A DNA stretch of 64,000 nt from Oxalobacteraceae bacterium CAVE-383. Lineage in GTDB: Bacteria > Pseudomonadota > Gammaproteobacteria > Burkholderiales > Burkholderiaceae_D. The notes beneath the pieces were generated by a model, which saw only the letters and a program-made list of their open reading frames with translations, ran no database searches and was not told the origin of the DNA. This document shows, piece after piece, positions 8,544 through 50,309 of this stretch; position 1 is the stretch's first letter, and every line of letters begins with the position of its first letter. The stretch covers positions 1 to 64,000 of the forward strand of contig REGP01000003.1 of NCBI GenBank assembly GCA_004134995.1, in the 5' to 3' direction. The translations under genes and the position numbers were made by a program.

Positions 8544-10307
8544 ATGTCGGATAACGAAGAGCAACCCAAACGCGGCCATAACATCAACGATCACATGTAC
8601 GGCGAGGAATTCAACCACGTGCATGAAGAGGGCGAAGACGCCGATCACGATCATGACGACTTCGATGTCGAAGAAGGTTCGCTGGAAGACAACCCGGTAT
8701 ACCAGCAGGACCACGTATCGCTGGTCAGCGTCGGCATCGACATCGGTTCGTCGGGCACGCAGGTCATTTTCTCGCGCATCAAATTGCGCCGCATGGGCGA
8801 AGACCTGTGCAGCCGTTATTTCGTGGTCTCGCGCGATACGCTGTACCAGTCGCCGGTCGCGCTGACGCCGTATCAAAGCGAAACCCTGATCGATGAAGCC
8901 GCGCTGGGCGCGATCATCGACCAGGCGTATCAAGGCGCCGGCCTGCATCCGGACGATATCGACACCGGCGCCGTGATCCTGACCGGCGAAGCCTTGCGGC
9001 GCGAAAATGCGCAGGGCATTTCCGCGATGCTGGCCGAAATGGGCGGCGAGTTCGTGTGCGCCACCGCCGGCCATCACATGGAATCGATGCTGGCGGCCTA
9101 CGGTTCGGGCGCCGCGCGCGCCTCGCACGATCTGGGCAAGCGCGTTCTCAATATCGATATCGGCGGCGGCACCACCAAGCTGGCGATGGTCGAAGGCGGC
9201 AAGGTCAAGGGCACGGCGGCAGTGCATATCGGCGGCCGCCTGCTGGTGGTCGACGAAAACCAGAAGATCGTCCGCCTGGATCCGACCGGCCGTTACCTGG
9301 CGCACGCCGCCGGCTTCGACTGGAAGCTCGGCGATACCGCATCTGCGGCGGACATGGAAAAAGTGGCCGACTGGATGGCCGAGGCATTGATCGCCGCCGT
9401 CAGCAGCGCCAGCGGACTGTCGGAAGACATCGAGCAATTGCGCCTGACCGATCCGCTGGATAATTTCGGTCCGATCGAAGGCATGATGTTCTCCGGCGGC
9501 GTCGCCGAATACGTCTACGACCGCGAACAGCGCGACTTCGGCGACATGGGCCGCAAGCTGGGCGCGGCATTGCGCCGCAAGATCGAAGGCGGCGCGTTTT
9601 CCTGGCCGTTGCTGCCGGCCGGCGAATGCATTCGCGCCACCGCGCTGGGCGCATCCGAATATTCCGTGCAGCTGAGCGGCAATACGACCTACATTTCGAG
9701 CCCGGGCAAGCTGCTGCCGCGCCGTAATCTGCAGGTGCTGCAGCCGACCTACGATACCAGCGGCGAGATCGATTCCGATAAATTGGCACAGGCGATCCGC
9801 GGCCACTTCAAGTCGTTCGACCTGGTTGAAGGCGAAACTGAAGTGGCGCTGGCGTTCCGCTGGAGCGGCGCGCCGTCCTATCAGCGCATCTTCGCGTTCG
9901 CGAACGGCATCGTGAAAGCGATGACGAGCACGCTGGCGCAGAAGTTGCCGCTGTACCTGATCCTGGACGGCGACCTGGCGCATACGCTGGGCAACCTGCT
10001 GCGCGACGAAATCAACATCACCAGCGAAATCCTGGTGATCGATGGTATCGTGCTGTGGGACTTCGACTATATCGACCTGGGACGCATCCGCATGCCGTCG
10101 CAAACCGTGCCGGTCACCGTCAAGTCGCTGGTGTTCAGCCAGGACCCGCGCACCCCGCTGGGCAATGCGCGCAACGACCTGAAATACCGCCCGCACGTCA
10201 AGGAGCACGGACACGGCCACACGCACGGCCATTCACATAGCCATGGCCACGGCCATTCACACAGCCACGGCGATCATTCGCATGATCATGATGGGCACGA
10301 TCATTAA
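8544..10307 (+). CDS. EutA-like ASKHA-fold protein with His-rich ends (second copy)
   Basis: A 587-residue paralogue of the protein at 342. Nucleotide-fold segments: VGIDIGSSGTQVIFSR near residue 70, NIDIGGGTTKLAMV near 210, and MFSGGVAEYVYD near 320. It differs in two ends: an acidic, His-containing N-terminus (HVHEEGEDADHDHDD) and a C-terminus of about 33 residues that is nearly half His with Gly, Ser and Asp, typical of nickel/zinc/cobalt binding. The ATG at 8544 is taken because the upstream ATG at 8517 adds residues without a ribosome site. It sits between a Pht5-like gene and a class II aldolase gene, not near ethanolamine genes, so its role may differ from classical EutA. Confidence 0.8.
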   Translation: MSDNEEQPKRGHNINDHMYGEEFNHVHEEGEDADHDHDDFDVEEGSLEDNPVYQQDHVSLVSVGIDIGSSGTQVIFSRIKLRRMGEDLCSRYFVVSRDTLYQSPVALTPYQSETLIDEAALGAIIDQAYQGAGLHPDDIDTGAVILTGEALRRENAQGISAMLAEMGGEFVCATAGHHMESMLAAYGSGAARASHDLGKRVLNIDIGGGTTKLAMVEGGKVKGTAAVHIGGRLLVVDENQKIVRLDPTGRYLAHAAGFDWKLGDTASAADMEKVADWMAEALIAAVSSASGLSEDIEQLRLTDPLDNFGPIEGMMFSGGVAEYVYDREQRDFGDMGRKLGAALRRKIEGGAFSWPLLPAGECIRATALGASEYSVQLSGNTTYISSPGKLLPRRNLQVLQPTYDTSGEIDSDKLAQAIRGHFKSFDLVEGETEVALAFRWSGAPSYQRIFAFANGIVKAMTSTLAQKLPLYLILDGDLAHTLGNLLRDEINITSEILVIDGIVLWDFDYIDLGRIRMPSQTVPVTVKSLVFSQDPRTPLGNARNDLKYRPHVKEHGHGHTHGHSHSHGHGHSHSHGDHSHDHDGHDH

Positions 10308-27567: not shown

Positions 27568-28851
27568 ATGACCAAACGCGAACAAAACGAACTGCTGACA
27601 CAGACCGGCCCAGGCACCCCGATGGGCGATCTGTTCCGCCGTTACTGGATACCGGCAATCATGTCGTCCGAACTGCCGGAAAACGATTGCCCGCCTGTGC
27701 GCGTCAAGCTGTTGTCCGAGCGCATGATCGCTTTCCGCGACAGCGAAGGCAAATATGGCCTGATCGATGAATTCTGCGCCCACCGCGGCGTTTCGCTGTG
27801 GTTCGGCCGCAACGAAGAAAGCGGCCTGCGCTGCCCATACCATGGCTGGAAATACGATGTCACCGGCCAATGCGTCGACGTCCCATCGGAATCGGTCGAA
27901 AGCGGCTACTGCAACAAGATCAAACTGAAGGCCTATCCGCTGATCGATCGCGGCGGCATCCTGTGGACATACATGGGTCCTCCTGAACTGCAACCGCCGC
28001 TGCCTGAATACGAATTCGCAATGGTCGGTCCAAAGCGCAGCTACGTTTCGAAGCGCCATCAGGAATGCAACTACCTGCAGGCCATGGAAGGCGGTATCGA
28101 TTCCAGCCACGTTTCGTTCCTGCACAGCGGTGCTCTGGAACACGATCCGCTGTTCAAGGGCGCCAAGGGCAATCAATACAATCTGCAGGATTTCCAGGTC
28201 AAATTCGAAGTGGTCGAATCCGACGGCGGCCTGCTGATCGGCGCACGCCGCAATGCGGAAAACGGCAATTACTACTGGCGCATCACGCAGTGGGTCATGC
28301 CTTGCTTCACAGCGATCCCACCGCGCGGCGACCATCCTATCCACGGTCACTTCTGGATTCCAATCGATGACGAGAGCTGCTGGTCGTGGAGCTACGATTA
28401 CCATCCGGCGCGCGATCTGAGCGAAAAAGAAGTGCAGGCGATGGACGACGGCCACGGCATCCACGTCAAGCTGATCCCGGGTACTTTCATTCCGGTGCAA
28501 AACAGCAGCAACGATTACCTGATGGACCGCGCCGCGCAAAAGGCCAAGGTCAGCTACAGCGGCATCTCGGGCATTGCGATCCAGGATTCGTCCCTGCAGG
28601 AAAGCATGGGCCCGATTGCCGATCGCAGCAAAGAGAACCTGGTTTCGACCGACAACGGCATCATCATGGCGCGCCACCGTCTGCGCAAGGCCGTCCTGGC
28701 CCTGCAAAAAGGCATCGCGCCTCCAGGCCTGGATCCGGTCAACCACCGCGTGCGTTCCGCTTCGCTGGTGCTGCCGCCCGACGTCGCCTTCAAGGATGCC
28801 GCCAAGGATGCGCTGATCGCGCATGAAGGCCAGCCTTTGACTTCGGTTTAA
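27568..28851 (+). CDS. Rieske non-haem iron oxygenase, phthalate 4,5-dioxygenase type (copy 2)
   Basis: A 427-residue oxygenase closely similar to the 15308 protein. Rieske ligands: FCAHRGVSLWFG and LRCPYHGWKYD. Mononuclear iron triad: IDSSHVSFLHSG (D-x2-H-x4-H). The N-terminus TGPGTPMGDLFRRYWIPA is again phthalate-dioxygenase-like. The main differences from copy 1 are in the substrate-facing region after the iron site (for example the insertion around FKGAKGNQYNLQDFQ), so it may act on a different ring or isomer. GAGGAATTGAA precedes the ATG. The Pht5-like gene at 28972 follows. Confidence 0.85.
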   Translation: MTKREQNELLTQTGPGTPMGDLFRRYWIPAIMSSELPENDCPPVRVKLLSERMIAFRDSEGKYGLIDEFCAHRGVSLWFGRNEESGLRCPYHGWKYDVTGQCVDVPSESVESGYCNKIKLKAYPLIDRGGILWTYMGPPELQPPLPEYEFAMVGPKRSYVSKRHQECNYLQAMEGGIDSSHVSFLHSGALEHDPLFKGAKGNQYNLQDFQVKFEVVESDGGLLIGARRNAENGNYYWRITQWVMPCFTAIPPRGDHPIHGHFWIPIDDESCWSWSYDYHPARDLSEKEVQAMDDGHGIHVKLIPGTFIPVQNSSNDYLMDRAAQKAKVSYSGISGIAIQDSSLQESMGPIADRSKENLVSTDNGIIMARHRLRKAVLALQKGIAPPGLDPVNHRVRSASLVLPPDVAFKDAAKDALIAHEGQPLTSV

Positions 28852-28971
28852 ACGGGACGCTCTCAAGCTCCTGCCCGCCCGATGTAGTCGCCGACCGCGC
28901 CCCCACGGGCCCGGCGGCGATTGTTTTTTGAAGCGGTACTGCGCCGAATAATTTACCCGGAGACCACCAGA

Positions 28972-29919
28972 ATGGCCGAACAGAAACTGAAGACGGCGTT
29001 CCAGACGCTTGGACATACCAAGGCGTTGAAAGACGGCAGCCTCAAGCCGCAAAGTTTTGAATTTGAATTCGAAGAAGTGCCGGCCATCATCCAGGCTTTC
29101 CGCCGCATGGTGCGCGGTCACGAGTTCGACATCAGCGAGATGGCGATCACAACCTATATGTGCGCGCGCGCCGCCGGCAAGCGTTTCACCGCGCTGCCGG
29201 TGTTCCTGGTGCGGGCCTTTCACCATGGCGCGATCCTGCAAAATACGCAAGTCGGCCTGACCGGCCCCAAGGATCTCGAAGGCAGGAAAGTCGCGGTCAA
29301 TCGCGGCTATACCGTCACCACCGGCGTCTGGGCGCGCGGCGTGCTGCAGCATGAGCACGGCGTCGATCTGAACAAGATCAACTGGATCCTGTCGGGCGAC
29401 GAACACGTTGCCGAATACCAGGCGCCGGCGAATGTGCAGCCGGTCGAGAAGGGCCGCGACCTGCAGGAAATGCTGATCGCGGGCGAGGTGGTGGCCGCCA
29501 CCGGCATGACGATCGATAATCCGATCATCAAGCCGCTGATTCCGAACGCCAAGGAAGCCGGTTTCGCGGCGCTGAAGGCGACCGGTTATTATCCGATCAA
29601 CCACACCGTCGTGGTGCGCGACGAACTGCTGGCTGCCCAGCCGGGCCTGGCCAGGGAACTGTTCATGCTGTTTGCGGAAGCCAAGAAGCCGTATATCGAA
29701 CAGCTCAGGAACAAGCAGATCGCGCAGCCTACGCCGGCCGACCAGACGTACGCGCGGGTCATGGAAATTACCGGCGGCGATCCATTGCCGTACGGTATCG
29801 AGCCAAACCGCAAAATGATAGAAATGGTTATTCGCCTTGCTGGAGAACAAGGCATCGTCAAACAGCCATTTACAGTAGAAGAGCTGTTCGCGGCAGGCAC
29901 CCACGATCTGATCGGGTGA
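28972..29919 (+). CDS. 4,5-dihydroxyphthalate decarboxylase-like protein (copy 2)
   Basis: A 315-residue protein of the Pht5 family (periplasmic-binding-protein-like fold, no signal peptide). Landmarks: FDISEMAITTYM, FHHGAILQNTQVGLTGPKDL and GYYPINHTVVVRDELL, matching the same positions of the 7480 protein. The start is ATG at 28972 after GGAGACCACC; an upstream in-frame codon at 28921 has no ribosome site. Coming directly after a phthalate-type oxygenase, a decarboxylase for the dihydroxylated product is the natural reading, though the family also contains uncharacterised binding proteins. It may instead deliver ligand to the ABC system that follows. Confidence 0.7.
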   Translation: MAEQKLKTAFQTLGHTKALKDGSLKPQSFEFEFEEVPAIIQAFRRMVRGHEFDISEMAITTYMCARAAGKRFTALPVFLVRAFHHGAILQNTQVGLTGPKDLEGRKVAVNRGYTVTTGVWARGVLQHEHGVDLNKINWILSGDEHVAEYQAPANVQPVEKGRDLQEMLIAGEVVAATGMTIDNPIIKPLIPNAKEAGFAALKATGYYPINHTVVVRDELLAAQPGLARELFMLFAEAKKPYIEQLRNKQIAQPTPADQTYARVMEITGGDPLPYGIEPNRKMIEMVIRLAGEQGIVKQPFTVEELFAAGTHDLIG

Positions 29920-30001
29920 CCCTTGTGACTTATCGTCGTTACGCCGCAAAAAATGGTCCGGCATATGCCGGCAACAATTGATCTTCTGGAGAAACAGCAG
30001 C

Positions 30002-31063
30002 ATGAAGCATTTGAGTTTAATTCGACGCATCGCCGTCTGCCTGGGCGCCGGCTTGGCCTTGGTCTTCGGCAGCGCCGCAAGCAATGTCTACGCCGCGGAC
30101 ATGATCCCGGTGCGCGTCGGGCTGGCCAACGCCAGCAGCGACGTCGGCTTTTTCATCGCCGACAAAAAAGGCTACTTCAAGCAGGAAGGCCTGCTGGTCT
30201 CTTATACCCCTTTCGATTCGGCCGCCAAGATGGTCGCGCCGCTGGGCGCCGGCCAGATTGAAGTCGGCGCCGGTTCGCCGTCGGTCGGCCTGTACAACGC
30301 CATCGCGCGCGGCATCGAAATCAAGATCGTCGCCGACAAGGGATCGACGCCGCCCGGCTACGGCTATCAGCCGCTGCTGGTGCGCAAGGATCTGATCGAC
30401 AGCGGCCGCTACAAATCGCTCAAGGATCTGAAAGGCATGAAGATCGCCGGCAGCGCGCCGGGCAGCGGATCGACCTCGACGATGAACGAAGCCCTCAAAA
30501 AAGGCGGCCTGAAGCCGGCTGATGTGGAGCGCGTGTTCCTGGCGTTTCCGCAGCATGTGCTGGCGCTGCAGAACAAGGCGGTCGATGCCGCACTGACCAC
30601 CGAGCCGTCGGCCACCAAGGCGGTGCAAAGCGGCGCCGCGGTGCGCGTCATGGGCGACGACGAAATCTATCCGAACCACCAGCTGGCCGTGGTGCTGTAT
30701 TCCGGCAATTTCATCAAGAAGAATCCGGATGCGGCCAAGCGCTTCATGCGCGCCTATCTGCGCGCCGTGCGCGACTATAATGATGCGCTCAAGGGCGGCA
30801 AGCTTGCCGGCCCCAACGCCGAAGATGTGATTTCGATCCTGACCGAGTACACCAACGTCAAGGATCCGGCCGTGTATCGCGCCATCAGCGTGCAGGGTTG
30901 CAGCCCGGACGGCACAGTCGACGTGCCGAGCCTGAAAAACGATCTGGCCTTCTTCAAGAGCGAAGGCCTGGTCAAGGGTGAAGTATCGGTCGACCAAGCG
31001 CTCGACACTTCTTTCGCCGCCGCGGCAGCGAAGGAACTCGGACCGTACAAGCGAAAGAAATAA
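30002..31063 (+). CDS. ABC transporter substrate-binding protein (nitrate/sulfonate/taurine type)
   Basis: A 353-residue periplasmic protein of the NMT1/SsuA family. Signal peptide: CLGAGLALVFGSAASNVYAAD. Typical segments: FFIADKKGYFKQEGL, GAGSPSVGLYNAIARG and DLKGMKIAGSAPGSGS. The ATG at 30002 follows CTGGAGAAACAGCAG. It is the first gene of a complete transporter (binding protein, ATPase, permease, 30002-32725). Members of this family import nitrate, sulfonates or aromatic and heterocyclic acids; the context suggests the last. Confidence 0.85.
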   Translation: MKHLSLIRRIAVCLGAGLALVFGSAASNVYAADMIPVRVGLANASSDVGFFIADKKGYFKQEGLLVSYTPFDSAAKMVAPLGAGQIEVGAGSPSVGLYNAIARGIEIKIVADKGSTPPGYGYQPLLVRKDLIDSGRYKSLKDLKGMKIAGSAPGSGSTSTMNEALKKGGLKPADVERVFLAFPQHVLALQNKAVDAALTTEPSATKAVQSGAAVRVMGDDEIYPNHQLAVVLYSGNFIKKNPDAAKRFMRAYLRAVRDYNDALKGGKLAGPNAEDVISILTEYTNVKDPAVYRAISVQGCSPDGTVDVPSLKNDLAFFKSEGLVKGEVSVDQALDTSFAAAAAKELGPYKRKK

Positions 31064-31070
31064 GGACGTC

Positions 31071-31898
31071 ATGCAAACCAATTCGAACCACCAGGACGCA
31101 GTGCCGAAGATTCAACTGCAGAACCTGACCAAGAGTTTCCAAACCGCGGGCGGCGTCGTTACGGCGCTCGATAATGTCTCGCTCGACATTCCAACCGGCT
31201 GCTTTTTCATGATCGTCGGCCCCAGCGGCTGCGGCAAGACCACGCTGCTGCGCATCCTGGCAGGCCTGGAAGCGCCGACTTCCGGCAGCGTCAAGGTCAG
31301 CGCGCCGGCGGCCAACCGCCCGGCCAATTCGATGGTGTTCCAGGGCGACTCGCTGTTCCCGTGGATGACCGTATTCGAAAACGCGGCCTACGGCCTGACG
31401 CTGCGCAATCGGCCGAAGGGCGAGATCGACGACACCGTCGGCCATTACCTGAACCGTATCGGCATGACCAAGTTCGCCAAGGCCTATCCGCACCAGTTGT
31501 CGGGCGGCATGCGGCAACGGGTGTCGATCGCGCGCGCATTCGCCAACGATCCGGACATCCTGCTGATGGACGAACCGTTCTCGGCGCTCGATGAGCAGAA
31601 CAAGCTGCTGCTGCAGGAAGAACTGCTGCGCATCTGGGACGAAACCCGCAAGACCGTGCTGTTCATCACGCATAGCGTGGACGAAGCGGTCACGCTGGGC
31701 GACCGCATCATGATCATGACGGCGCAGCCGGGCCGCGCCAAGCAGATCATCGATGTGCCGTTCGAGCGTCCGCGTGAAGTGCTGTCGCTGCGCGCCCGCC
31801 CGGCGTACGGCGAACTGGTGTATTCGATCTGGGGACAACTGCGCGACGAAGTGCAGGCAGCCCGTTCGCAGGATGAAAAAAGGAGTATCAAAGCATGA
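31071..31898 (+). CDS. ABC transporter ATP-binding protein (SsuB/TauB type)
   Basis: A 275-residue ATPase. Walker A is GPSGCGKTT, the Q-loop is MVFQGDSLFPWM, the signature is LSGGMRQRVSIARAF, Walker B is ILLMDEPFSALD, and the switch His lies in LFITHSVDEAV. The start at 31071, 7 bp after the binding-protein stop with AAGGACGTC before it, is preferred to the overlapping upstream ATG at 30978. Its stop overlaps the permease start (ATGA), so the two are translationally coupled. Confidence 0.9.
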   Translation: MQTNSNHQDAVPKIQLQNLTKSFQTAGGVVTALDNVSLDIPTGCFFMIVGPSGCGKTTLLRILAGLEAPTSGSVKVSAPAANRPANSMVFQGDSLFPWMTVFENAAYGLTLRNRPKGEIDDTVGHYLNRIGMTKFAKAYPHQLSGGMRQRVSIARAFANDPDILLMDEPFSALDEQNKLLLQEELLRIWDETRKTVLFITHSVDEAVTLGDRIMIMTAQPGRAKQIIDVPFERPREVLSLRARPAYGELVYSIWGQLRDEVQAARSQDEKRSIKA

Positions 31899-32725
31899 GT
31901 GCCGTATCCGATAGCCAACCGGAAGTGACGCCGGTCAAACCAGCGGCGAAAGCGCGCCGCAAAATGAGTCTGAGCAATCGCGACCGCCTGATCAGCATCT
32001 TCTCGCCGATCGCGCTGCTGGTGATCTGGGAAATCCTGGTGCGGGTCGGCCTGCTCGACGCGCGCTTCTTCCCGGCGCCGTCCAGCGTGTTCGAAACCCT
32101 GGTGCAACTGGTCGAAGACGGCAGCCTCTGGGCCAATACCTGGGCCACCCTGCAACGCCTGTTCTGGGGCTTCTTCCTGGGCGGCATTCCGGGCCTGCTG
32201 CTGGGCATCGGCATGGGCCTGAACCGCACCTTGCGCGCCATCGTCGATCCGTTGATCTCCACCACCTATCCGGTGCCGAAGAGCGCGATCTTCCCGTTGA
32301 TCCTGCTGATTTTCGGTCTCGGCGAAGGCTCCAAGATCGTCATGGTCGCCATCGGCGTGTTCTACCCGGTGCTGATCAATTCGACCATCGGCGTACTGGA
32401 AATCAACAAGATTTATCTCGACGTCGGCCGCAATTTCAAGGCCAGCCGCTGGCAGACATTCCGCACCATCGCCTTCCCGGGCGCGGTGCCGAGCATCATG
32501 AGCGGCATCAAGCTGGGCCTCGGCCTGGGCCTGATGCTGATCGCCATCGCCGAAATGATCGGCGCCAAGAGCGGTCTCGGTTTCATGATCTGGAATGCAT
32601 GGGAAATCCTGTCGGTCGAAACCATGTATGTCGGCCTGATCGTGATTGCCTTGCTGGGCGTGATCTTCTCGATCGTGCTCAATGAAGTCGAGAGCAAGCT
32701 GGTACCCTGGAAAAACTCCAGATAA
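31895..32725 (+). CDS. ABC transporter permease (SsuC/TauC type)
   Basis: A 276-residue inner membrane protein with about six hydrophobic segments and the permease loop in DVGRNFKASRWQTFRTIAFP. It begins with ATG overlapping the ATPase stop. The cytoplasmic N-terminus is basic (KPAAKARRKMSLSNRDR). It completes the importer encoded from 30002. A rho-independent terminator follows 24 bp after the stop. Confidence 0.9.
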   Translation: MSAVSDSQPEVTPVKPAAKARRKMSLSNRDRLISIFSPIALLVIWEILVRVGLLDARFFPAPSSVFETLVQLVEDGSLWANTWATLQRLFWGFFLGGIPGLLLGIGMGLNRTLRAIVDPLISTTYPVPKSAIFPLILLIFGLGEGSKIVMVAIGVFYPVLINSTIGVLEINKIYLDVGRNFKASRWQTFRTIAFPGAVPSIMSGIKLGLGLGLMLIAIAEMIGAKSGLGFMIWNAWEILSVETMYVGLIVIALLGVIFSIVLNEVESKLVPWKNSR

Positions 32726-32749
32726 TTAGCAAACAGTAAAGTAAACAGA

Positions 32750-32786
32750 AATGCCTCCGCGCCAAAAGCGCGGGGGCATTTTTTTT
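32750..32786 (+). terminator. Rho-independent terminator after the ABC importer
   Basis: A 13-bp stem of AATGCCTCCGCGC with GCGCGGGGGCATT (one G-T pair), a loop of CAAAA, and a run of eight T residues. Confidence 0.9.
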
Positions 32787-32808: not shown

Positions 32809-32833
32809 GGACCGGTGTTTCGTATTTTTTATT
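32809..32833 (+). promoter_or_regulatory. Putative IclR-type composite operator upstream of the degenerate CobW-like gene
   Basis: Boxes GGACC / GTTTC are clear, with GTAT after them as in other copies; the third box (TTATT) is lost. It lies 114 bp before the start at 32948. Confidence 0.45.
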
Positions 32834-32947
32834 GCCCTTGTCCAATTTTCCTCATAGAATGAGGACGCAAAAATAAGAACCGGCGATCCGGAGGACGTTG
32901 CGCTCACTGCGCGGCGCCATGAAAAAATCAGAGGAGACCCTCCTGCG

Positions 32948-33967
32948 ATGGATAAGCGAATTCCCGTAACGGTATTGACTGGCGATCCGGGCGTGGGCAA
33001 GACCGCGCTGCGTCACCGCATCCTGTCGGAGGATTCCGCTCGCCGCTACGCGCTTGTCGTCGATCGCGCCGATGCGTGCGGCGCAAGCGCCGACGCGCTC
33101 GTCGTGCACACCGAGGAAGAGCTATTCGAGATGAACAGCGGCTGCATCTGCTGCACCATCCGCGGCGATCTGATCCGCGCCTTGCATACCCTGCTGATGG
33201 AGCAGTCCGGCAAATTCGACGCCGTCATCATCGAGACCGCCGGCAGCGCCGATCCCGGTCCGATCATTCAAACCTTTTTCATCGATCATATTCTGGAGCA
33301 GCGCACCCGGCTCGACGCCATCGTCGCCGTGGCCGGCGCCGATACCATCGTCCGCAATCTGCGGGACCAGCGGCACGCCGTGCAGCAGATCGCCTTTGCC
33401 GACCAGATCGTATTGAATAACGCCGCGGCGATGGACGGCACGGCGCTTGCCGCGGTGGAAGCGCGCCTGCGCGGCGTCAATCCGCTGGCTGTGATCCATC
33501 GCGCCCAGGCCGCCGATATCGCCATCGAGCGATTATTGGAACGCGGCGCCTTCGAGCTGGAACGCGGCGCGGCGCTGCCGTCCGATTTCCTGATGCCGGA
33601 GCAACATGCGGGCGACGGCAGCGATGGCGATGTCCGCGCATTCTCCTTGCGCAGCGACGTGCCGATGGCGTTCGAGCGCATCGACGAATGGCTGGCGGCG
33701 CTGGTCATGGGCCGCGGCGCCGACATCCTGCGCGGCAAGGGCATCGTCGACGTTGTCGATGCCGGCGGCGAGCACCGGCGCCTGGCGTTTCAATCCGTGC
33801 AGATGCTGCATGAAGGGAATTTCCCGCGCCCCTGGGCAGCGGGCGAGCGGCGCGCCAGCCAGGTGGTTTTCATCGGCCGCAATCTCGATCGGATGGCATT
33901 GCAAACCGGCTTCATGTCCTGCGCGGCGGCCGGTGTGGAAAATTTCGCGCTGGTAGCCGCAGCCTGA
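32948..33967 (+). CDS. CobW/P47K-like protein with degenerate GTPase motifs
   Basis: A 339-residue COG0523 protein. Walker A is kept (LTGDPGVGKTALRHRIL) and so is the metal-site motif GCICCTIRGDL. The usual NEFGEIGID switch segment is replaced by VVDRADACGASAD, and the guanine-specificity NKxD is replaced by NNAAAMD. The C-terminal domain (GADILRGKGIVDV, LAFQSVQMLHEG) is retained. Compared with the intact paralogue at 45227 it also lacks the His-rich linker. Typical members insert or chaperone zinc, cobalt or other metals using GTP. This one may have lost GTP specificity or work as a partner subunit. It follows an operator-like site and has GGAGACC upstream. Confidence 0.75.
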   Translation: MDKRIPVTVLTGDPGVGKTALRHRILSEDSARRYALVVDRADACGASADALVVHTEEELFEMNSGCICCTIRGDLIRALHTLLMEQSGKFDAVIIETAGSADPGPIIQTFFIDHILEQRTRLDAIVAVAGADTIVRNLRDQRHAVQQIAFADQIVLNNAAAMDGTALAAVEARLRGVNPLAVIHRAQAADIAIERLLERGAFELERGAALPSDFLMPEQHAGDGSDGDVRAFSLRSDVPMAFERIDEWLAALVMGRGADILRGKGIVDVVDAGGEHRRLAFQSVQMLHEGNFPRPWAAGERRASQVVFIGRNLDRMALQTGFMSCAAAGVENFALVAAA

Positions 33968-34004: not shown

Positions 34005-35798
34005 ATGGAATCTATGAGTAGCGCTCGCCTTGCAGGCGATGCGCAAACCGGCATTGCCACAGTCAATGAATCGGCGCGCATCCTCAATCTGCCCGGCGTC
34101 GGAGACAGCAAAAAGGCCGCGGAGAAAGCTGCAAGGAAGGCCGCCAAAGGAAAGCTCAAGCCGGTCAAGGCCGGCGGCGCGGCAATGACCGTCAAGAGCC
34201 GCGGCCCGATGCAATGGTTCTACAACCTGAAGCTGGCCAAGAAGCTCATGTGCGTGGTCGCGATGGTGCTGGCGCTGAGTATTTTTGTCGGCCTGTTTTC
34301 GGTCGGCCAGTTGAACGAGGTAAACAAGTCGGCCGCTGAAATGAAGAACGTGTGGCTGCCGAGTTTGCGCAGCGTGCTGCATATTCGCGAACAGCTGGCG
34401 CGCCTGCGCGCGATCGAGGTGCAGTATTCGGTGGTCAGCGCGGATGCCGACCTGTCGCCGTATAAAAAGAACACGGCAGCCTTGTTTGCCGATCTGGAGC
34501 AGAGCGTCGCCCAATATTCGCAATTGGTGACCCAGCCCGCCGAGCAAGAGGCGCTGCAGCGTTTCAAGAGCCAGTTGGGACCGTATCTGGAGCAGCACCA
34601 GAAGATCTTCGCGGCCATCGATGCGCAAAAAGCCTGGGACGTGCCGGAAATGCTGAAGGGTGAAGCGCTCGGCGCGCCGCGCACCAAGCTTAACGCCATT
34701 GCCGACGAGCTGATCAAGATCAACGAAGAAGGCAGCACGCGCGCCGGCGCGGTCGGCGACAGCATTTACAAGGCAGGCCGCATCTGGATCTTCGGCATGC
34801 TGGCCGCCAGCGTCCTGATCGGCTGCGGCTTTGCCTTGTGGATCGCACGCATCGTGTCGAACCCGCTGACATCGGCCGTGAACCTGTCGCGGCGCGTCGC
34901 CGCCGGCGACCTGACCGGCGACGTCGAAGTGCGCTCCACCGACGAGACCGGCCAGTTGATGCAGGCGCTCAAGGACATGAACGCCGCGCTCACGCGCATC
35001 GTGACCGATGTGCGTCTCGGCACCGACGCCATTGCCACCGCGTCCGGCGAAATCGCCTCCGGCAATATGGATCTGTCGACCCGCACCGAGCAGCAGGCCG
35101 GCGCGCTGGAAGAAACCGCGTCGTCGATGGAAGAAATGACGCATGCGGTGAAGAAGAGCGCCGACAGCGCCAACCAGGCCAATCTGTTCGCGGAATCGGC
35201 CACGCGGGTTGCGCTCAAAGGCAGCACCGTGGTGTCGGAAGTGGTCGATACGATGGGTTCGATCAGCGAATCGGCCAAGCGGATTATCGACATCATCGGC
35301 GTGATCGACGGCATCGCCTTTCAAACCAATATCCTGGCGCTGAACGCCGCGGTGGAAGCGGCGCGGGCGGGCGAGCAGGGCCGCGGTTTCGCGGTCGTGG
35401 CGGCCGAAGTGCGCACGCTGGCGCAGCGCAGCGCCACCGCCGCCAAGGAGATCAAACAGCTGATCGGCGATTCGGTGCAGAACGTCGACGCCGGCACCAA
35501 GCTGGTCGGACAGGCCGGCGCCACCATGACCGAAATGGTCGACGGCGTGAAAAAACTGGCCGACATCATGGGCGAAATCACCACCTCCACGCAAGGCCAG
35601 GCGGCCGGCATCGACCGCATCAACCAGGCGCTGCAGCAGATGGAAAATGTGACGCATCAGAACGCCGCGCTGGTGGAGCAGGGCGCCGCCGCTTCGGAAA
35701 GCATGCGCGAGCAGGCTGAAAATCTGCTGCGCTCGGTCAGCGTATTCAAGCTCGGCGACGGTTCGGCCGGCGGCGCTGCGTTGATGCTGGGACGTTAG
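34005..35798 (+). CDS. Methyl-accepting chemotaxis protein 1
   Basis: A 597-residue chemoreceptor. Two membrane segments (about residues 82-103 and 260-280) flank a periplasmic four-helix-type sensor of about 155 residues. HAMP and a full signalling domain follow; the hairpin tip is [20 protein letters not shown]. The N-terminus is unusual: about 68 residues before the normal start MQWFYNLKLAKKLM, with a Lys/Ala-rich stretch KKAAEKAARKAAKGKLK. GGGGGACC before the ATG at 34005 supports the long form; no ribosome site precedes the internal ATG at 34209. It probably senses a substrate of the island. Confidence 0.88.
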   Translation: MESMSSARLAGDAQTGIATVNESARILNLPGVGDSKKAAEKAARKAAKGKLKPVKAGGAAMTVKSRGPMQWFYNLKLAKKLMCVVAMVLALSIFVGLFSVGQLNEVNKSAAEMKNVWLPSLRSVLHIREQLARLRAIEVQYSVVSADADLSPYKKNTAALFADLEQSVAQYSQLVTQPAEQEALQRFKSQLGPYLEQHQKIFAAIDAQKAWDVPEMLKGEALGAPRTKLNAIADELIKINEEGSTRAGAVGDSIYKAGRIWIFGMLAASVLIGCGFALWIARIVSNPLTSAVNLSRRVAAGDLTGDVEVRSTDETGQLMQALKDMNAALTRIVTDVRLGTDAIATASGEIASGNMDLSTRTEQQAGALEETASSMEEMTHAVKKSADSANQANLFAESATRVALKGSTVVSEVVDTMGSISESAKRIIDIIGVIDGIAFQTNILALNAAVEAARAGEQGRGFAVVAAEVRTLAQRSATAAKEIKQLIGDSVQNVDAGTKLVGQAGATMTEMVDGVKKLADIMGEITTSTQGQAAGIDRINQALQQMENVTHQNAALVEQGAAASESMREQAENLLRSVSVFKLGDGSAGGAALMLGR

Positions 35799-39907: not shown

Positions 39908-39930
39908 GAAATGGAACCGCGCGAATGACG

Positions 39931-44060: not shown

Positions 44061-45227
44061 TTGGAAAAAGTACGCGCAGCAGTTAAAACCGGCCCAAGCA
44101 AAATCGAAATGCGGGAATTCCCGATGCCGGAAATTCCAGAGGACGGCGACTCGGCCCTGATGAAGATCGAAGTTGCCGGCATCTGCGGCACCGACGTCAA
44201 GATGTACAAGGAAGAACTGAAGACCGGCGGCCCGGTCATCATGGGTCACGAAAACATCGGCGTGATCGTCAAGGCCGGCAAGGAATTCACGGCGCGCAAG
44301 GGCTTCAAGGTCGGCGATCGCGTTTTCGTCGAACATTACGTCGCCTGCGGCAAGTGCGAATGGTGTCATTCGGGCGAATACCGCCACTGCGAAAACACCG
44401 ACTGGCGCTCGAACCCGGACGGCATCCGCTACGGCTACTCGACATCGGACAAGCCGCCGCACCTGTGGGGCGGTTTTGCCGAATACATGTATCTGCCATG
44501 GAACGCCGTCGTGCACAAAGTGCCGGACGGCATGACGCCTGAGCGCGCCGGCCTGGTTACGCCTATGGCCAACGGCATCGAATGGGCATTGTTCGATTCG
44601 AAGGTCGGCTACAACTCGGTGGTGCTGATCCAGGGTCCTGGCCAGCAAGGCCTGTCGCAAGTGGTTGCCTGCAAACAAGCCGGCGCCAAGCTGATCATCG
44701 TCACCGGCACCACCAAGGATGCCGCGCGTTTTGAAGTGGCCAAGAAACTGGGCGCCGATGTCACCATCGACGTGCAAACGGAAAACCCGCTGGAACGCAT
44801 CATGGAAGTCACCGGCGGCTACGGCGTCGATGTCTCCCTCGATTGCACCGCCGGCGCGGGCACCGCGGCGATCCTGCTGGGCGTGGAAGCGATGAAGCGC
44901 AAGGGCGGCACACTGCTGATCCAGGGTGAAATGTCGGAATTCCCGAACTTCCCGATCGGTAAAGTGACTGTCAAGTACATCACCATCAAGAGCGCGCGCG
45001 GCCACAGCTACAAGGCTTGCGAACTGGCCCTGGAGCAACTGGCGTCGAAGCGTTTCCCGCTGGATCTGCTGACCACCCACCGCTTCCGCCTGGACGAAGT
45101 CGAGAAGGCCATCAAGGCCGTGACCGGCGAAGGCGAAATCAAGGGCGCGGTGCACGTGTCGCTGATGCCATGGCGCACCGTGGAAGACAGCGAAAAAGAC
45201 GCAGCGAAGGCGGCTGCGGCAGCCTGA
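44061..45227 (+). CDS. Zinc-dependent alcohol dehydrogenase family protein
   Basis: A 388-residue medium-chain dehydrogenase. Catalytic zinc ligands: ICGTDVKMYK and MGHENIG. The structural zinc loop is ACGKCEWCHSGEYRHC. The NAD fold is VLIQGPGQQGLSQVVACKQAG, a variant of the usual GxGxxG. An Ala/Lys-rich tail ends the protein. It oxidises an alcohol or hydroxyacid intermediate (inference). The start is TTG at 44061 with GGAGAG upstream. Its stop overlaps the CobW start (TGATG), coupling the enzyme to a metal-chaperone-like protein, perhaps its zinc supplier. Confidence 0.82.
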   Translation: MEKVRAAVKTGPSKIEMREFPMPEIPEDGDSALMKIEVAGICGTDVKMYKEELKTGGPVIMGHENIGVIVKAGKEFTARKGFKVGDRVFVEHYVACGKCEWCHSGEYRHCENTDWRSNPDGIRYGYSTSDKPPHLWGGFAEYMYLPWNAVVHKVPDGMTPERAGLVTPMANGIEWALFDSKVGYNSVVLIQGPGQQGLSQVVACKQAGAKLIIVTGTTKDAARFEVAKKLGADVTIDVQTENPLERIMEVTGGYGVDVSLDCTAGAGTAAILLGVEAMKRKGGTLLIQGEMSEFPNFPIGKVTVKYITIKSARGHSYKACELALEQLASKRFPLDLLTTHRFRLDEVEKAIKAVTGEGEIKGAVHVSLMPWRTVEDSEKDAAKAAAAA

Positions 45228-46444
45228 TGAGCGCCGCCAACGAAGCCGTCGTCAAGACCGAAGCCGGAGCCGCAGACGCGGCGCCGGCCGTGCGGATTCC
45301 GGTCACGGTGCTGACCGGCTATCTGGGCGCCGGCAAGACGACGCTGCTCAACCGCATATTGTCGGAGGACCATGGCCGGCGCTATGCGGTGATCGTCAAC
45401 GAGTTCGGGGAAATCGGCATCGACAACGATCTGATCCTGAACTCCGACGAAGAGCTGTTCGAAATGAGCAACGGCTGCATCTGCTGCACCGTGCGCGGCG
45501 ATCTGATCCGCACGCTGCACGGGCTGCTGGAAAAGGCTGAGGGGGCCGAGGGAGCCGGGGGCGGCAATTTCGACGCGATCATCGTCGAAACTACCGGCCT
45601 GGCCGATCCGGGTCCGGTGGCGCAGACGTTTTTCGTCGATCCCTTCCTGCAGGCCAGGACGGTGCTCGATTCGGTGACCACGGTGGTCGACGCCAAGCAT
45701 ATCCTGCTGCGCCTGGCCGATAGCCGCGAAGCCGTTGAACAAGTGGCATTCGCCGACCAGATCGTGCTGAACAAGACCGAACTGGTGGACGAGCAGGCAT
45801 TGCGCGAAGTCGAGACGCGCCTGCGCAAGATCAATCCGCTGGCGCCGATACATCGTGCGCAGCGCTCCAACGTGGCGCTGGATAAAGTGCTGGCGCGCGG
45901 CGGTTTCGATATTGAGCGTATCATCTCGCTGGAACCGGATTTCCTGAATCCGGCGCATGGCGAAGCGGGCCATGTGCATGACGAACACTGCGGCCATGAC
46001 CATCACGATCATGGGCACGTGCATGATGAGCATTGCGGCCACGATCATGACGATCACGGCCATGCGCATGAAGACAAACACGGGCACGGGCATGAGGCGA
46101 AGCAGCCGCATGCACAGTACGACCACGAGCACGACAGCGGCATCGACAGCATCGGCCTCACGTCGCACACGCCGATGGACCCGACCCGCATCAGCCTGTG
46201 GCTGAACGCGCTGATCGCCAGCAAGGGCGCGGACATCCTGCGCGCCAAGGGCATCATCGACGTCAAGGACGAGCCGCGGCGGCTGGTGTTCCAATCGGTG
46301 CACATGGTGCTGGAAGGCGACTTGCAGCAGCCGTGGAAGCCATCGGAGCCGCGTTACAGCAGACTGGTATTCATTGGACGCAACCTGGACAAGGATGCGC
46401 TGCGCGCAGGCTTTGAGTCCTGTATTTCGGAAAGGAGCGCATGA
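45227..46444 (+). CDS. CobW/P47K family metal-chaperone GTPase (intact copy)
   Basis: A 405-residue COG0523 GTPase. Walker A is LTGYLGAGKTTLLNRIL, the switch segment VNEFGEIGIDNDL, the metal motif GCICCTVRGDL, Walker B IIVETTGLADPGP and the guanine motif NKTELVD. A His-rich linker of about 60 residues (repeated HDEHCGHDH units) separates the GTPase domain from the CobW C-terminal domain (GADILRAKGIIDVKD). Family members deliver Zn or Co to client enzymes; the gene overlaps both the zinc dehydrogenase upstream and the FtsZ-like gene downstream by ATGA-type junctions, so all three should be made together. Confidence 0.88.
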   Translation: MSAANEAVVKTEAGAADAAPAVRIPVTVLTGYLGAGKTTLLNRILSEDHGRRYAVIVNEFGEIGIDNDLILNSDEELFEMSNGCICCTVRGDLIRTLHGLLEKAEGAEGAGGGNFDAIIVETTGLADPGPVAQTFFVDPFLQARTVLDSVTTVVDAKHILLRLADSREAVEQVAFADQIVLNKTELVDEQALREVETRLRKINPLAPIHRAQRSNVALDKVLARGGFDIERIISLEPDFLNPAHGEAGHVHDEHCGHDHHDHGHVHDEHCGHDHDDHGHAHEDKHGHGHEAKQPHAQYDHEHDSGIDSIGLTSHTPMDPTRISLWLNALIASKGADILRAKGIIDVKDEPRRLVFQSVHMVLEGDLQQPWKPSEPRYSRLVFIGRNLDKDALRAGFESCISERSA

Positions 46445-46896
46445 TGGAAAAGACATACGACGCCGTCGACATTTCAAGCTGTGCCATTGCGATCACCGAT
46501 ACCCGCTATCGCATCGACAGCCCCAATTCGCAGCGCCGCTTCATTGAAGTGGTGGGCCTCGGCACCGGCGGCGAGCAAGTCGCGCGCATGGTCGAGGCGC
46601 GCGGACTGGCCGATGTGCATGTGGTGATACCGGACGCCAATCGCGCCCTGCAACTGCTGGACGGCACCGACATGCTGTTCATCATTACCTGCGATGGCGA
46701 CGACGTCAGCCTGGCGCCGGTTTTCAAGCAGGCGGCGCGCAAGCTCGGCGTGCAGATCACGGGCATCTTCATTCATGACCCGGCATTGAAGCCGGAGCCG
46801 GTCAGCTTTGCCGCGCTCAGGGCCTCGTCGGATATCCTGGTGATTGCCTCGAGCGAGGACTATGCGATCGACATGTTGATTCAGCTTGGTGCTTAA
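46441..46896 (+). CDS. Short FtsZ-like domain protein
   Basis: A 151-residue protein resembling the N-terminal half of FtsZ. IEVVGLGTGGEQVARMVEA aligns with the FtsZ start IKVIGVGGGG..., and GTDMLFIITCDGDDVSLAPV aligns with the FtsZ stretch ADMVFVTAGEGGGTGTGAAPV. VFKQAARKLGVQITGIFI continues the match. The tubulin signature GGGTGTG is replaced by DGDDVSL and the C-terminal polymerisation domain is missing, so it is unlikely to form filaments or bind GTP in the usual way. It overlaps the CobW stop by 4 bp (ATGA), suggesting a linked role in metal-protein maturation. The function is unknown. Confidence 0.65.
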   Translation: MMEKTYDAVDISSCAIAITDTRYRIDSPNSQRRFIEVVGLGTGGEQVARMVEARGLADVHVVIPDANRALQLLDGTDMLFIITCDGDDVSLAPVFKQAARKLGVQITGIFIHDPALKPEPVSFAALRASSDILVIASSEDYAIDMLIQLGA

Positions 46897-47532: not shown

Positions 47533-48012
47533 ATGGCTAAATATGGCTTTACCGTGAACGGTAAAAAGGTATCGGTGGACGCGGATCCGGCGATGCCGCT
47601 GTTATATGCGCTGCGCGACGATCTGAAGATGGATAATCCCAAATTCGGTTGCGGTCTGGCCCAATGCGGCGCCTGTACCGTGCACCTGAACGGCGGCGCC
47701 ACGCGCTCCTGCGTGTTGCCGGTATCGGCGATCCAGGGCCAGAACGTCACCACCATCACCGGCCTCGGCACCGAAGCCAGGCCGCATCCGCTGCAAACCG
47801 CGTATATCGAAGAGCAAGTGCCGCAATGCGGTTACTGCATCAACGGCTGGATGATGACCGGCGCGGCGCTGCTGGAACAGAATCCGAATGCTTCCGACGC
47901 GGAAATCCGCGAAGCGCTGTCCGGCCTGAAGTGCCGCTGCGGCACCCATCTGGCCATCCTGCGCGCCATCAAGCGCGCCCAGGCGGCAATGAAACAAGGA
48001 GTGTCAGCATGA
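47533..48012 (+). CDS. [2Fe-2S] subunit of a molybdenum hydroxylase (isoquinoline 1-oxidoreductase alpha type)
   Basis: A 159-residue protein with the two iron-sulfur sites of the xanthine oxidase family: the plant-type cluster FGCGLAQCGACTVHLNGG with its last Cys in RSCVLPV, and the helical-domain cluster QCGYCINGWMM with LKCRCGTH. It passes electrons from the molybdenum centre of the large subunit, whose gene overlaps its stop (ATGA). The start at 47533 with GGAGACAGAC is preferred to the upstream in-frame ATG at 47485. Confidence 0.9.
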   Translation: MAKYGFTVNGKKVSVDADPAMPLLYALRDDLKMDNPKFGCGLAQCGACTVHLNGGATRSCVLPVSAIQGQNVTTITGLGTEARPHPLQTAYIEEQVPQCGYCINGWMMTGAALLEQNPNASDAEIREALSGLKCRCGTHLAILRAIKRAQAAMKQGVSA

Positions 48013-50309
48013 GCGCCGAACTCGGGGTATCGATGAAGCGCCGCCAGTTTCTGGTGGCTTCGGGCGCCTTGGTGGTATGCGCCGCCGCGCCATGGGAAGT
48101 ACAGGCCGCGACCAAGCCGTTGCCGCAAGTCGGCAGCGCCGCCATTCCATTGAAGCCGACGCTGGATCCGGTGGAGCTCGATTCGTGGGTCGCGATCCTG
48201 CCGGACGGCAGCGTGAACGCCTATTTCGGCAAGGTCGATCTGGGCCAGGGGCTGGAAGTCGGCATTGCGCAGATCGTTGCCGATGAGCTCGACGTGCGCT
48301 ACGAAAAAGTGCATGTGCTGATGGGCGACACCAACGTCGCCATCAATCAGGGCGGCGCTTCCAGTGCGCTGGGCATCGCCGCCGGCGCCAAGCCGATGCG
48401 CAATGCCGCCGCCGAAGCGCGCCGCCTGATGGTGGCCATGGCTTCCGAAAAACTGAATGTGCCGGTCGATCAACTGGCGGTCTACGACGGCCTAGTGGCG
48501 CCGCGCGACAATCCGTCCCGCGGCGTGACATACGCCGATCTGATCGGCGGCAAATACTTCAATTCCAAGGTCAAATGGAATGAGAAGGAAGGCAACGAGC
48601 TGTACATCGAAGGCAAGGCCAAGCCGAAATCGTACAAGGATTACAAAGTGGTCGGGCAGTCGTTCCCGCGCAACGACGTGGCGTGGAAGGCATTCGGCAC
48701 CGACGGATTCGTCAGCGACGTGCGCGTGCCCAATATGCTGCATGCGCGCATGGTGCGCACGCCGCATGCGGGCAGCACGATCGTCAAGGTCGATGCGTCC
48801 TCGATCGCCGGCATCAAGGGCGCGCGCGTGATCCAGGACAAGAATTTCCTGGCCGTGGTCGCCGAAAAGGAATGGGACGCCGTGCGCGGCGCGCAGATGC
48901 TGCAGGTGCAGTGGAGCGAACCGGTCAATCCGTTCCCGCCGCAGGAAAAACTGTACGACCACATCCGCGGCGCCAAGGTGGTCAAGCGCGATGAAGAAGT
49001 CAAGAAGGGCGACGCCAGGAAAATCCTGAACGATCCGGGCGCCTATAAAATGGTCGAGGCCGAATACCATTGGCCGTTCCAGTCGCACGCCAGCATGGGG
49101 CCGTCCTGCGCGGTGGCCGATGTCAAAAAGGACCAGGTCACCATCTGGACCGGTTCGCAGAAGCCGCACTATGCGCGCGACGGCATCGCCAATCTGCTCA
49201 AAATGAAGCCGGAACAGGTGCATGCGATCTGGGTGGTCGGCGCCGGCTCGTACGGCCGCAACGATGCGGGCGATGCCGTGATCGACGCGGCATGGCTGTC
49301 GAAGCTGACCGGCCGTCCGGTGCGCGTGCAGGGCATGCGCCGCGACGGCACCGGTTGGGACCCGAAGGCGCCGGCCTCGATCCATCGCGGCCGCGCCGCG
49401 CTGGATGCCGACGGCAAGGTGGTGGCCTACGAATTCAACGCCAAGGGATTCTCGCGTTCGAACATCAACAGCAATGAATCCTATCCGGGCGACAGCCTGG
49501 CCGGCATGGAAATGGGCGCCGCGCTGAAACCGGGCAATACCTTCGGCGTGCCGGCCGAAGCCTATACCTTCGAAAACAAATCGATGGCATGGGAAACCAT
49601 TGCGCCGCTGCTGGACCGCGCCTCGCCGCTGCGCACCGCGCACATGCGCGATCCGGTCGGTCCGCAAACGCATTTCGCCAGCGAGCAGTTCATCGATGAA
49701 ATCGCGGTCGCCGCCAAGACCGATTCGGTCGCATTCCGCCTGAAAAACCTGAAGGACGGGCGCGACAAGGCCATCATCAAGGCCATCGCCGACAAATCGG
49801 GCTGGCAGCCGGCCGTCGCGCCGCGCAAGCTGCGCGACGGCGATCTCATGCTGGGCCGCGGCATTGCCTATGCGCAGCGCAGCGGCACCTTTGTCGCGGT
49901 GATTTCGGAGATTGAAGTCAATCCGAAGAGCGGCCGCATCTGGGTCCGCAAATTCACCGTCGGCCATGATTGCGGCATCGTCGTCAATCCGCGCCAGTTG
50001 CATAACGTGATCGAGGGCGCGCTGATCCAGGGCATGTCGCGCGGCATGTTCGAGGAGGTGCATTTCACGCCGGACATGGTCAGCAGCGTGGACTGGATGA
50101 CTTACCGCATCGTGGACATGACGGATATCCCGGGCCAAGTCGATATCGTCATGCTGAACCGTCCCGAAGCGTCGCCGACCGGCGCCGCCGAAGCGACGTC
50201 GCGCGTGGTGCCGGCATCGCTGGCCAATGCCTTCTTCGACGCCACCGGCGTGCGCCTGCGCCGCGCGCCGCTGTCGCCGGAAAACGTGCTGGCCGCGCTC
50301 AAGGCCTGA
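48009..50309 (+). CDS. Molybdopterin-binding subunit of a molybdenum hydroxylase (isoquinoline 1-oxidoreductase beta type)
   Basis: A 766-residue large subunit. It starts with a Tat-type signal (KRRQFLVASGALVVCAA), so the enzyme is probably exported folded to the periplasm or membrane face, with the small subunit carried along. Further features: KVDLGQGLEVGIAQIVADEL, GGASSALGIAAG, and near the end the molybdenum-site Glu in GAAEATSRVVPASLANAFF, where most relatives read GxGE. Such enzymes hydroxylate N-heterocycles or oxidise aldehydes and usually pass electrons to cytochromes; no cytochrome gene is nearby. It closes the catabolic island: housekeeping genes start 138 bp later. Confidence 0.88.
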   Translation: MSAELGVSMKRRQFLVASGALVVCAAAPWEVQAATKPLPQVGSAAIPLKPTLDPVELDSWVAILPDGSVNAYFGKVDLGQGLEVGIAQIVADELDVRYEKVHVLMGDTNVAINQGGASSALGIAAGAKPMRNAAAEARRLMVAMASEKLNVPVDQLAVYDGLVAPRDNPSRGVTYADLIGGKYFNSKVKWNEKEGNELYIEGKAKPKSYKDYKVVGQSFPRNDVAWKAFGTDGFVSDVRVPNMLHARMVRTPHAGSTIVKVDASSIAGIKGARVIQDKNFLAVVAEKEWDAVRGAQMLQVQWSEPVNPFPPQEKLYDHIRGAKVVKRDEEVKKGDARKILNDPGAYKMVEAEYHWPFQSHASMGPSCAVADVKKDQVTIWTGSQKPHYARDGIANLLKMKPEQVHAIWVVGAGSYGRNDAGDAVIDAAWLSKLTGRPVRVQGMRRDGTGWDPKAPASIHRGRAALDADGKVVAYEFNAKGFSRSNINSNESYPGDSLAGMEMGAALKPGNTFGVPAEAYTFENKSMAWETIAPLLDRASPLRTAHMRDPVGPQTHFASEQFIDEIAVAAKTDSVAFRLKNLKDGRDKAIIKAIADKSGWQPAVAPRKLRDGDLMLGRGIAYAQRSGTFVAVISEIEVNPKSGRIWVRKFTVGHDCGIVVNPRQLHNVIEGALIQGMSRGMFEEVHFTPDMVSSVDWMTYRIVDMTDIPGQVDIVMLNRPEASPTGAAEATSRVVPASLANAFFDATGVRLRRAPLSPENVLAALKA

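Follow-up and report, generated by a model that had tools for sequence, protein, structure and literature searches.

The locus and its surroundings

The window, by which we mean the whole 64,000-nucleotide stretch analysed here from Oxalobacteraceae bacterium CAVE-383, encodes an intact protein of the COG0523 (CobW) family and a degenerate one. The features that frame the two genes are the following:

27568..32725, + strand: genes for a Rieske oxygenase, a decarboxylase-like protein, a substrate-binding protein (SBP), an ABC ATPase and a permease, found near CobW in some relatives too
32744..32786, + strand: strong stem-loop with a T run, resembling an intrinsic terminator (z -5.7), between the ABC permease gene and the 32948 gene
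32832..32860, + strand: sigma-70-like promoter match, 9/12 (1 found against 0.5 expected by chance in the scanned region)
32948..33967, + strand: degenerate COG0523 (CobW) gene, 339 aa, ATG start, zero internal stops
33635..33922, + strand: CobW_C domain of the 32948 protein (Pfam CobW_C, 69 bits, residues 230-325)
44061..45227, + strand: Zn-type alcohol dehydrogenase (ADH) gene, immediately 5' of the intact CobW gene
45227..46444, + strand: intact CobW paralogue, 405 aa, with every motif and a His-rich linker

The ATG of the paralogue at 45227 overlaps the stop codon of the ADH gene; in most comparisons its sequence was started at 45233, minus the first two residues. The region 27568-50309 has the make-up of an aromatic-catabolic cluster (Rieske oxygenase, decarboxylase-like, PanB-like, alpha/beta hydrolase, amidohydrolase, RraA-like, Zn-type ADH, CobW, and ABC uptake with an SsuA-type SBP), with a gene order unlike that of relatives. 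One of the 27568..32725 genes, whose product matches no Pfam or NCBIfam family, presumably encodes a dihydroxyphthalate-decarboxylase-like protein, and the genes at 34005 and 36940 inside the cluster are, by their appearance, probably chemoreceptor-like. The gene directly after the intact CobW (46441-46896) codes for a 151-aa protein with a weak TrkA-like NCBIfam match alone and no Pfam family; a relative of it occurs in two copies in one locus (L157) and beside a Rieske gene in another (L163).

The ADH gene immediately precedes CobW in 12/12 related loci. Among the ten with longer flanks, an amidohydrolase lies nearby in 8, the 151-aa protein follows CobW directly in 6, and 5 carry the Rieske oxygenase on the stretch itself, a sixth genome having it on a separate contig. 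High-identity SBP-ABC-permease genes follow in 2/10, and one stretch breaks off at a contig edge with the SBP visible; in two of the ten loci there is little of the cluster to be seen (G017, a 6.4-kb contig, and G676, an 18-kb stretch with ADH-CobW only). For this comparison the references at 39925 and 40954, which are antisense to minus-strand genes, served as position markers only, and gene matches at 47743-50309 were left out. In the two relatives with the complete ABC system there is no cobW after the permease; the gene found there is, from the look of its sequence, presumably fumarylacetoacetate hydrolase-like. Since the permease of these two relatives precedes a non-cobW gene, and is followed here by a terminator-like hairpin and then by a gene with its own promoter-like match, the 32948 gene is an extra copy and not the displaced CobW of the cluster.

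The 32744..32786 hairpin was missed by a simple terminator scan. Overlapping the promoter-like match is a perfect 7-3-7 palindrome, TCCTCAT-AGA-ATGAGGA (32849-32865), the sole exact copy in the genome; we considered it as a control element and rejected it, because the relaxed pattern occurs in the window at chance level (2 found against 1.75 expected), and it may be a chance occurrence. The likely ribosome-binding site sits inside a small perfect hairpin, AGGAG-ACC-CTCCT (32932-32944). Riboswitch or other Rfam control of the 32948 gene was likewise discarded, the sole match in the window being a TPP riboswitch (RF00059, 60576-60682, 62.8 bits).

A 45-row tree places the 32948 protein within the 45227 clade, with a branch length of 2.47, as against 0.014-0.6 for other members of the clade; its exact attachment point there is unsupported (87/35). 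Judged by its sequence, the 32948 protein is thus a duplicate of the 45227 one that sits on a long branch.

Motifs kept and lost

The 32948 protein has both the CobW nucleotide-binding domain and the CobW_C domain of COG0523/G3E proteins, with a Pfam cobW match of 119 bits at residues 6-183, and is 46% identical to the 45227 paralogue. It stays below the curated NCBIfam cut-offs for the YjiA-type PRK11537 (157/361 bits), ZigA (131/600), CobW (124/332) and MRF (37/375) subfamilies, as does the intact paralogue. Its motifs are laid out as follows:

32978..33007, + strand: P-loop TGDPGVGKTA, residues 11-20; G..G.GKT retained, the next residue Thr20 changed to Ala, Leu14 to Pro
33062..33082, + strand: former Switch I, NEFGEIG changed to DRADACG, residues 39-45
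33140..33154, + strand: GCICC metal motif, retained, residues 65-69
33230..33256, + strand: G3/Walker B IETAGSADP, residues 95-103; Glu96 and Gly99 retained, Thr98 changed to Ala
33413..33436, + strand: former G4, LNKTELVD changed to LNNAAAMD, residues 156-163
33596..33640, + strand: short linker PEQHAGDGSDGDVRA, residues 217-231, at the place of the His-rich linker of the paralogue

Alignment to the paralogue bears out the earlier note, which had described Walker A and GCICC as retained and NEFGEIG and NKTELVD as altered: GxxGxGKT is present as GDPGVGKT (GYLGAGKTT of the paralogue having become GDPGVGKTA), the ExxG hallmark of G3E proteins with its Walker B Glu as ETAG (VETTGLADP to IETAGSADP), and CxCC as GCICC, while NNAA stands where NKxD or [ST]KxD is expected and DRADACG lacks the NE/ND start of Switch I seen in the aligned homologues. 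The list of losses was correct but incomplete, as Thr20, Thr98, the His-rich linker (HVHDEHCGHDH...) and Asp130 are gone as well, the last being Gly here and present in all 81 homologues compared. Of 51 sites conserved at 95% or more across those 81, the protein retains 38 and loses 13. The losses fall mostly (11 sites) in the P-loop, in G4 and in Switch I including the strand that leads into it, the other two being D130 and H225 of the linker; this concentration argues against chance. Among clade-invariant sites it keeps 29/36 in the C-terminal domain, 13/15 in the CxCC segment and 4/13 in Switch I; other windows of the protein retain fractions equal to or larger than that of the CxCC segment.

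A frameshift was rejected as the cause of the unusual Switch I and G4 sequences, since the missing motifs are absent from the other frames of the gene; the paralogue aligns to one single frame over the full length. The claim of an intact frame with a conserved C-terminal domain holds, with an open frame of 339 aa and CobW_C at 69 bits. An AlphaFold2 model of the protein (pTM 0.76) has YjiA as its closest PDB structure. The low confidence of its Switch I/CxCC region (below 50 at residues 42-70) is uninformative because the corresponding region of the intact control (residues 58-87) is as low, in a model with an overall pTM of 0.58, and AlphaFold confidence was dropped as evidence on this protein.

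Distribution among relatives

We assembled a homologue set of 148 loci giving 177 distinct rows, a subset of the matches listed, which includes the 32948 copy and its paralogue. With that copy excluded, a lenient five-motif test finds the canonical elements in 172/176 rows; the four remaining rows come from L103, where one gene is broken into two pieces in separate frames, from L038, which gives a C-terminal fragment, and from L140, a copy whose N-terminal half is garbled in a frameshift-like manner. Three loci added later (L168-L170) are all canonical. This distribution bears on whether the 32948 protein might simply be a canonical COG0523 GTPase whose divergent residues serve the usual functions. 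The Pfam cobW match far over the cut-off, the P-loop and the Walker B Glu would fit such a protein, but the Lys of NKxD and the Asn-Glu of Switch I are gone here and nearly all other rows have them, so that we consider this explanation very improbable.

We found no orthologue of the 32948 gene among 34 genomes of the genus and 392 of the family (E up to 1e-55), 399 of the order (1e-60), 321 of the class (1e-68) and 62 of a cluster-bearing genus (1e-65), sets that overlap and all count the own genome except the 62, with scoring confined, in part of the searches, to the 5 or 6 top candidates of each genome. A match from the genus at 56% identity (G016, L008) was set aside as an orthologue, since it has an ADH gene upstream and is instead an orthologue of the 45227 gene. 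A scan of genome contigs returned 70 loci with a top identity of 51%, and the rows obtained were canonical or fragments (one locus, L105, was cut by a contig end and contributed no row). The own genome has five COG0523 genes at the threshold used, the 32948 gene being the sole degenerate one. Viral contigs yielded no relatives, and 1425 plasmid records matched on similarity, motifs aside, with the best-ranked 30 at 42-45% identity and 32 records reaching 60-80%.

In another genome, the L038 locus (9017-9459) has a broken C-terminal remnant of a second CobW directly 3' of the intact CobW of the same cluster. Because this duplicated piece has decayed, decay after duplication does occur in this cluster.

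Selection on the 32948 branch

We fitted a branch codon model with a purpose-written script to 12 sequences and 321 codons, using three topologies for the main omega test, two for the partitions and one for 48 simulations. Synonymous distances to the clade are alike for the 32948 gene (0.67-1.5) and the paralogue (0.71-1.35), with synonymous sites near saturation, whereas nonsynonymous distances are 0.37-0.42 for the former against 0.09-0.24 for the latter, a roughly threefold rise in dN. Across the three topologies, omega, a branch average that hides recent change, is 0.24-0.29 on the 32948 branch against 0.08 elsewhere; a single omega is rejected (LRT 17.5-19.9) and so is omega=1 (LRT 19.2-52.2). 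When six other tips were taken one by one the LRT never exceeded 4.0, and in all 48 neutral simulations, run on one topology, the LRT fell short of the 19.2 observed, the maximum being 8.0.

From background to the 32948 branch, omega rises from 0.017 to 0.34-0.37 in the nucleotide motifs, from 0.07 to 0.24-0.26 in the rest of the G domain and from 0.14 to 0.26-0.30 in the linker and C-terminal domain, and proportional relaxation is rejected (LRT 50-52, 2 df). Within the branch, three classes do not fit significantly better than one omega (LRT 2.3-2.7, p 0.26-0.32). The motif-specific effect is therefore a contrast with the background and not a difference within the branch: with no significant difference among the classes, the motifs are now ordinary sites, not free ones, and for the motif codons alone omega=1 is rejected (LRT 9.9-12.2). 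When the CxCC segment is split off, with bounds (61-77) chosen after the alignment was viewed, its omega is 0.04-0.05 against 0.35-0.37 for the motifs and 0.27-0.30 for the rest (LRT 14, p 0.0009). Since neutrality is rejected, motif constraint is lost (0.017 to about 0.35) and the CxCC segment is tight (0.04), selection appears to have kept the protein as a non-GTPase whose cysteine site is preserved.

The main rival to such retention is recent decay, in which a duplicate that was functional for most of its history has only lately lost its role and now drifts, having as yet acquired no stop codon. We regard it as possible but the less probable account. It is favoured by the raised dN, by the presence of the gene in one genome only among the sampled genus, family, order and class genomes, and by the decayed, fragmentary or frameshifted CobW copies elsewhere (L038, L140, L103). 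In simulations of neutral drift without insertions or deletions, moreover, a stop-free frame persists in 42/200 and 59/200 runs at 0.1 changes per site and in 6/200 and 8/200 at 0.2, falling to 0-1/200 per setting at 0.32 or more. Against it stand the constraint on the CxCC segment despite the relaxed motifs and the motif codons evolving below the neutral rate. The view that this is not a simple pseudogene is upheld, on branch average, by the unbroken frame, the omega of 0.24-0.29 and the rejection of neutrality. Elevated nonsynonymous change together with homologues lacking conservation at the altered sites had been named beforehand as signs of decay; the former is present (about threefold), and for the latter the searches yielded no orthologue.

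Relation to known COG0523 proteins

With the 45227 protein and its orthologues the 32948 protein shares the P-loop, Walker B Glu, CxCC and CobW_C; it differs from them in the missing Switch I, G4, D130 and His-linker, and its gene stands alone downstream of an ABC permease. E. coli YjiA (PDB 1nij, 4ixm, 4ixn), its top PDB match by sequence and structure, has a like fold and CxCC, but unlike it has NEFG in Switch I and is reported to be a verified GTPase (PMC2770081). Degenerate COG0523 proteins are already known: Haas et al. 2009 reported mycobacterial Rv0106 as lacking the GTPase motifs (PMC2770081), and its smegmatis counterpart, MSMEG_6069, was labelled an MPY recruitment factor (MRF) in a 2020 paper (PMC7174638). 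In lacking these motifs Rv0106 resembles the 32948 protein, but as described there it also lacks Walker A and one Cys of CXCC, whereas the 32948 protein has both P-loop and CxCC; NCBIfam for its part calls its MRF model a GTPase, the 32948 protein scoring 37 bits on it against a cut-off of 375. In the open-licence literature, as far as the available portions go, we found no COG0523 protein with P-loop and CxCC but with lost Switch I and G4.

Acinetobacter MigC is reported to be a COG0523 protein that works via a partner, inhibiting MurD (PMC12208494). It is an active Zn-stimulated GTPase, unlike the 32948 protein as read here, holds Zn tightly by three CxCC cysteines and one N/O ligand in GTP-coupled binding, loses activity and full complementation in a Walker B mutant, and hydrolyses some ATP. 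The last point lends some plausibility to a new kind of P-loop NTPase, in which GKT and the Walker B Glu bind another nucleotide, e.g., ATP, and Switch I has been rebuilt; the retained GxxGxGKT and ExxG agree with this. However, the Thr after GKT, the Asn and Glu of Switch I and Asp130 are all gone, and a single sequence cannot reveal a new conserved motif. We hold such an enzyme to be improbable.

Proposed role

Returning to retention as a non-GTPase, we give a probability of roughly 0.5 to the following: the CobW of the catabolic cluster (45227) would have been duplicated, and the copy, having lost the GTP-reading elements (Switch I, G4 and Asp130) and the His-rich linker, would have been maintained by selection for the greater part of its history as a folded, CxCC-bearing protein. 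It would no longer switch on GTP: because metal binding in CobW and MigC is reported to be GTP-coupled, and Switch I and NKxD are gone, it should not cycle. It might instead act as a non-cycling scaffold or competitor, and not as a metal deliverer, by binding a partner, either a client of the intact CobW (the ADH or the amidohydrolase) or the intact CobW itself, in keeping with the earlier suggestion of a regulator or partner of the 45227 protein, for which common descent and the 11-kb distance are the basis.

That the protein still binds metal, as also proposed, is weakened: the retained CxCC speaks for it, as does the tight Zn holding reported for MigC through its CxCC cysteines and an N/O ligand, and the loss of the Switch I Glu residues and of the His-linker against it. 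CobW is reported to bind Co(II) weakly without nucleotide and more than 1000-fold tighter in its Mg-GTP than in its Mg-GDP form (PMC7895991), so that tight binding is tied there to Mg-GTP. The 32948 protein may perhaps hold a metal, and tight holding at CxCC might depend on ligands from the new Switch I (Cys44, Asp39, Asp42). Going by residue positions, Cys44 with Asp39/Asp42 could conceivably complete the Cys66/68/69 site with no need for Mg-GTP, a nucleotide-independent holder that we think unlikely. Were it true, the protein would sequester metal on behalf of the cluster's own GTP-driven chaperone or compete with it.

The 32948 gene may thus show a metallochaperone naturally split into its two halves, with GTP reading lost and the cysteine site retained. 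If it is decaying, it illustrates an ordinary fate of duplicates; if it encodes a working protein, it would open the question of what a COG0523 protein can do without the GTP switch, beside an intact paralogue of the same pathway.
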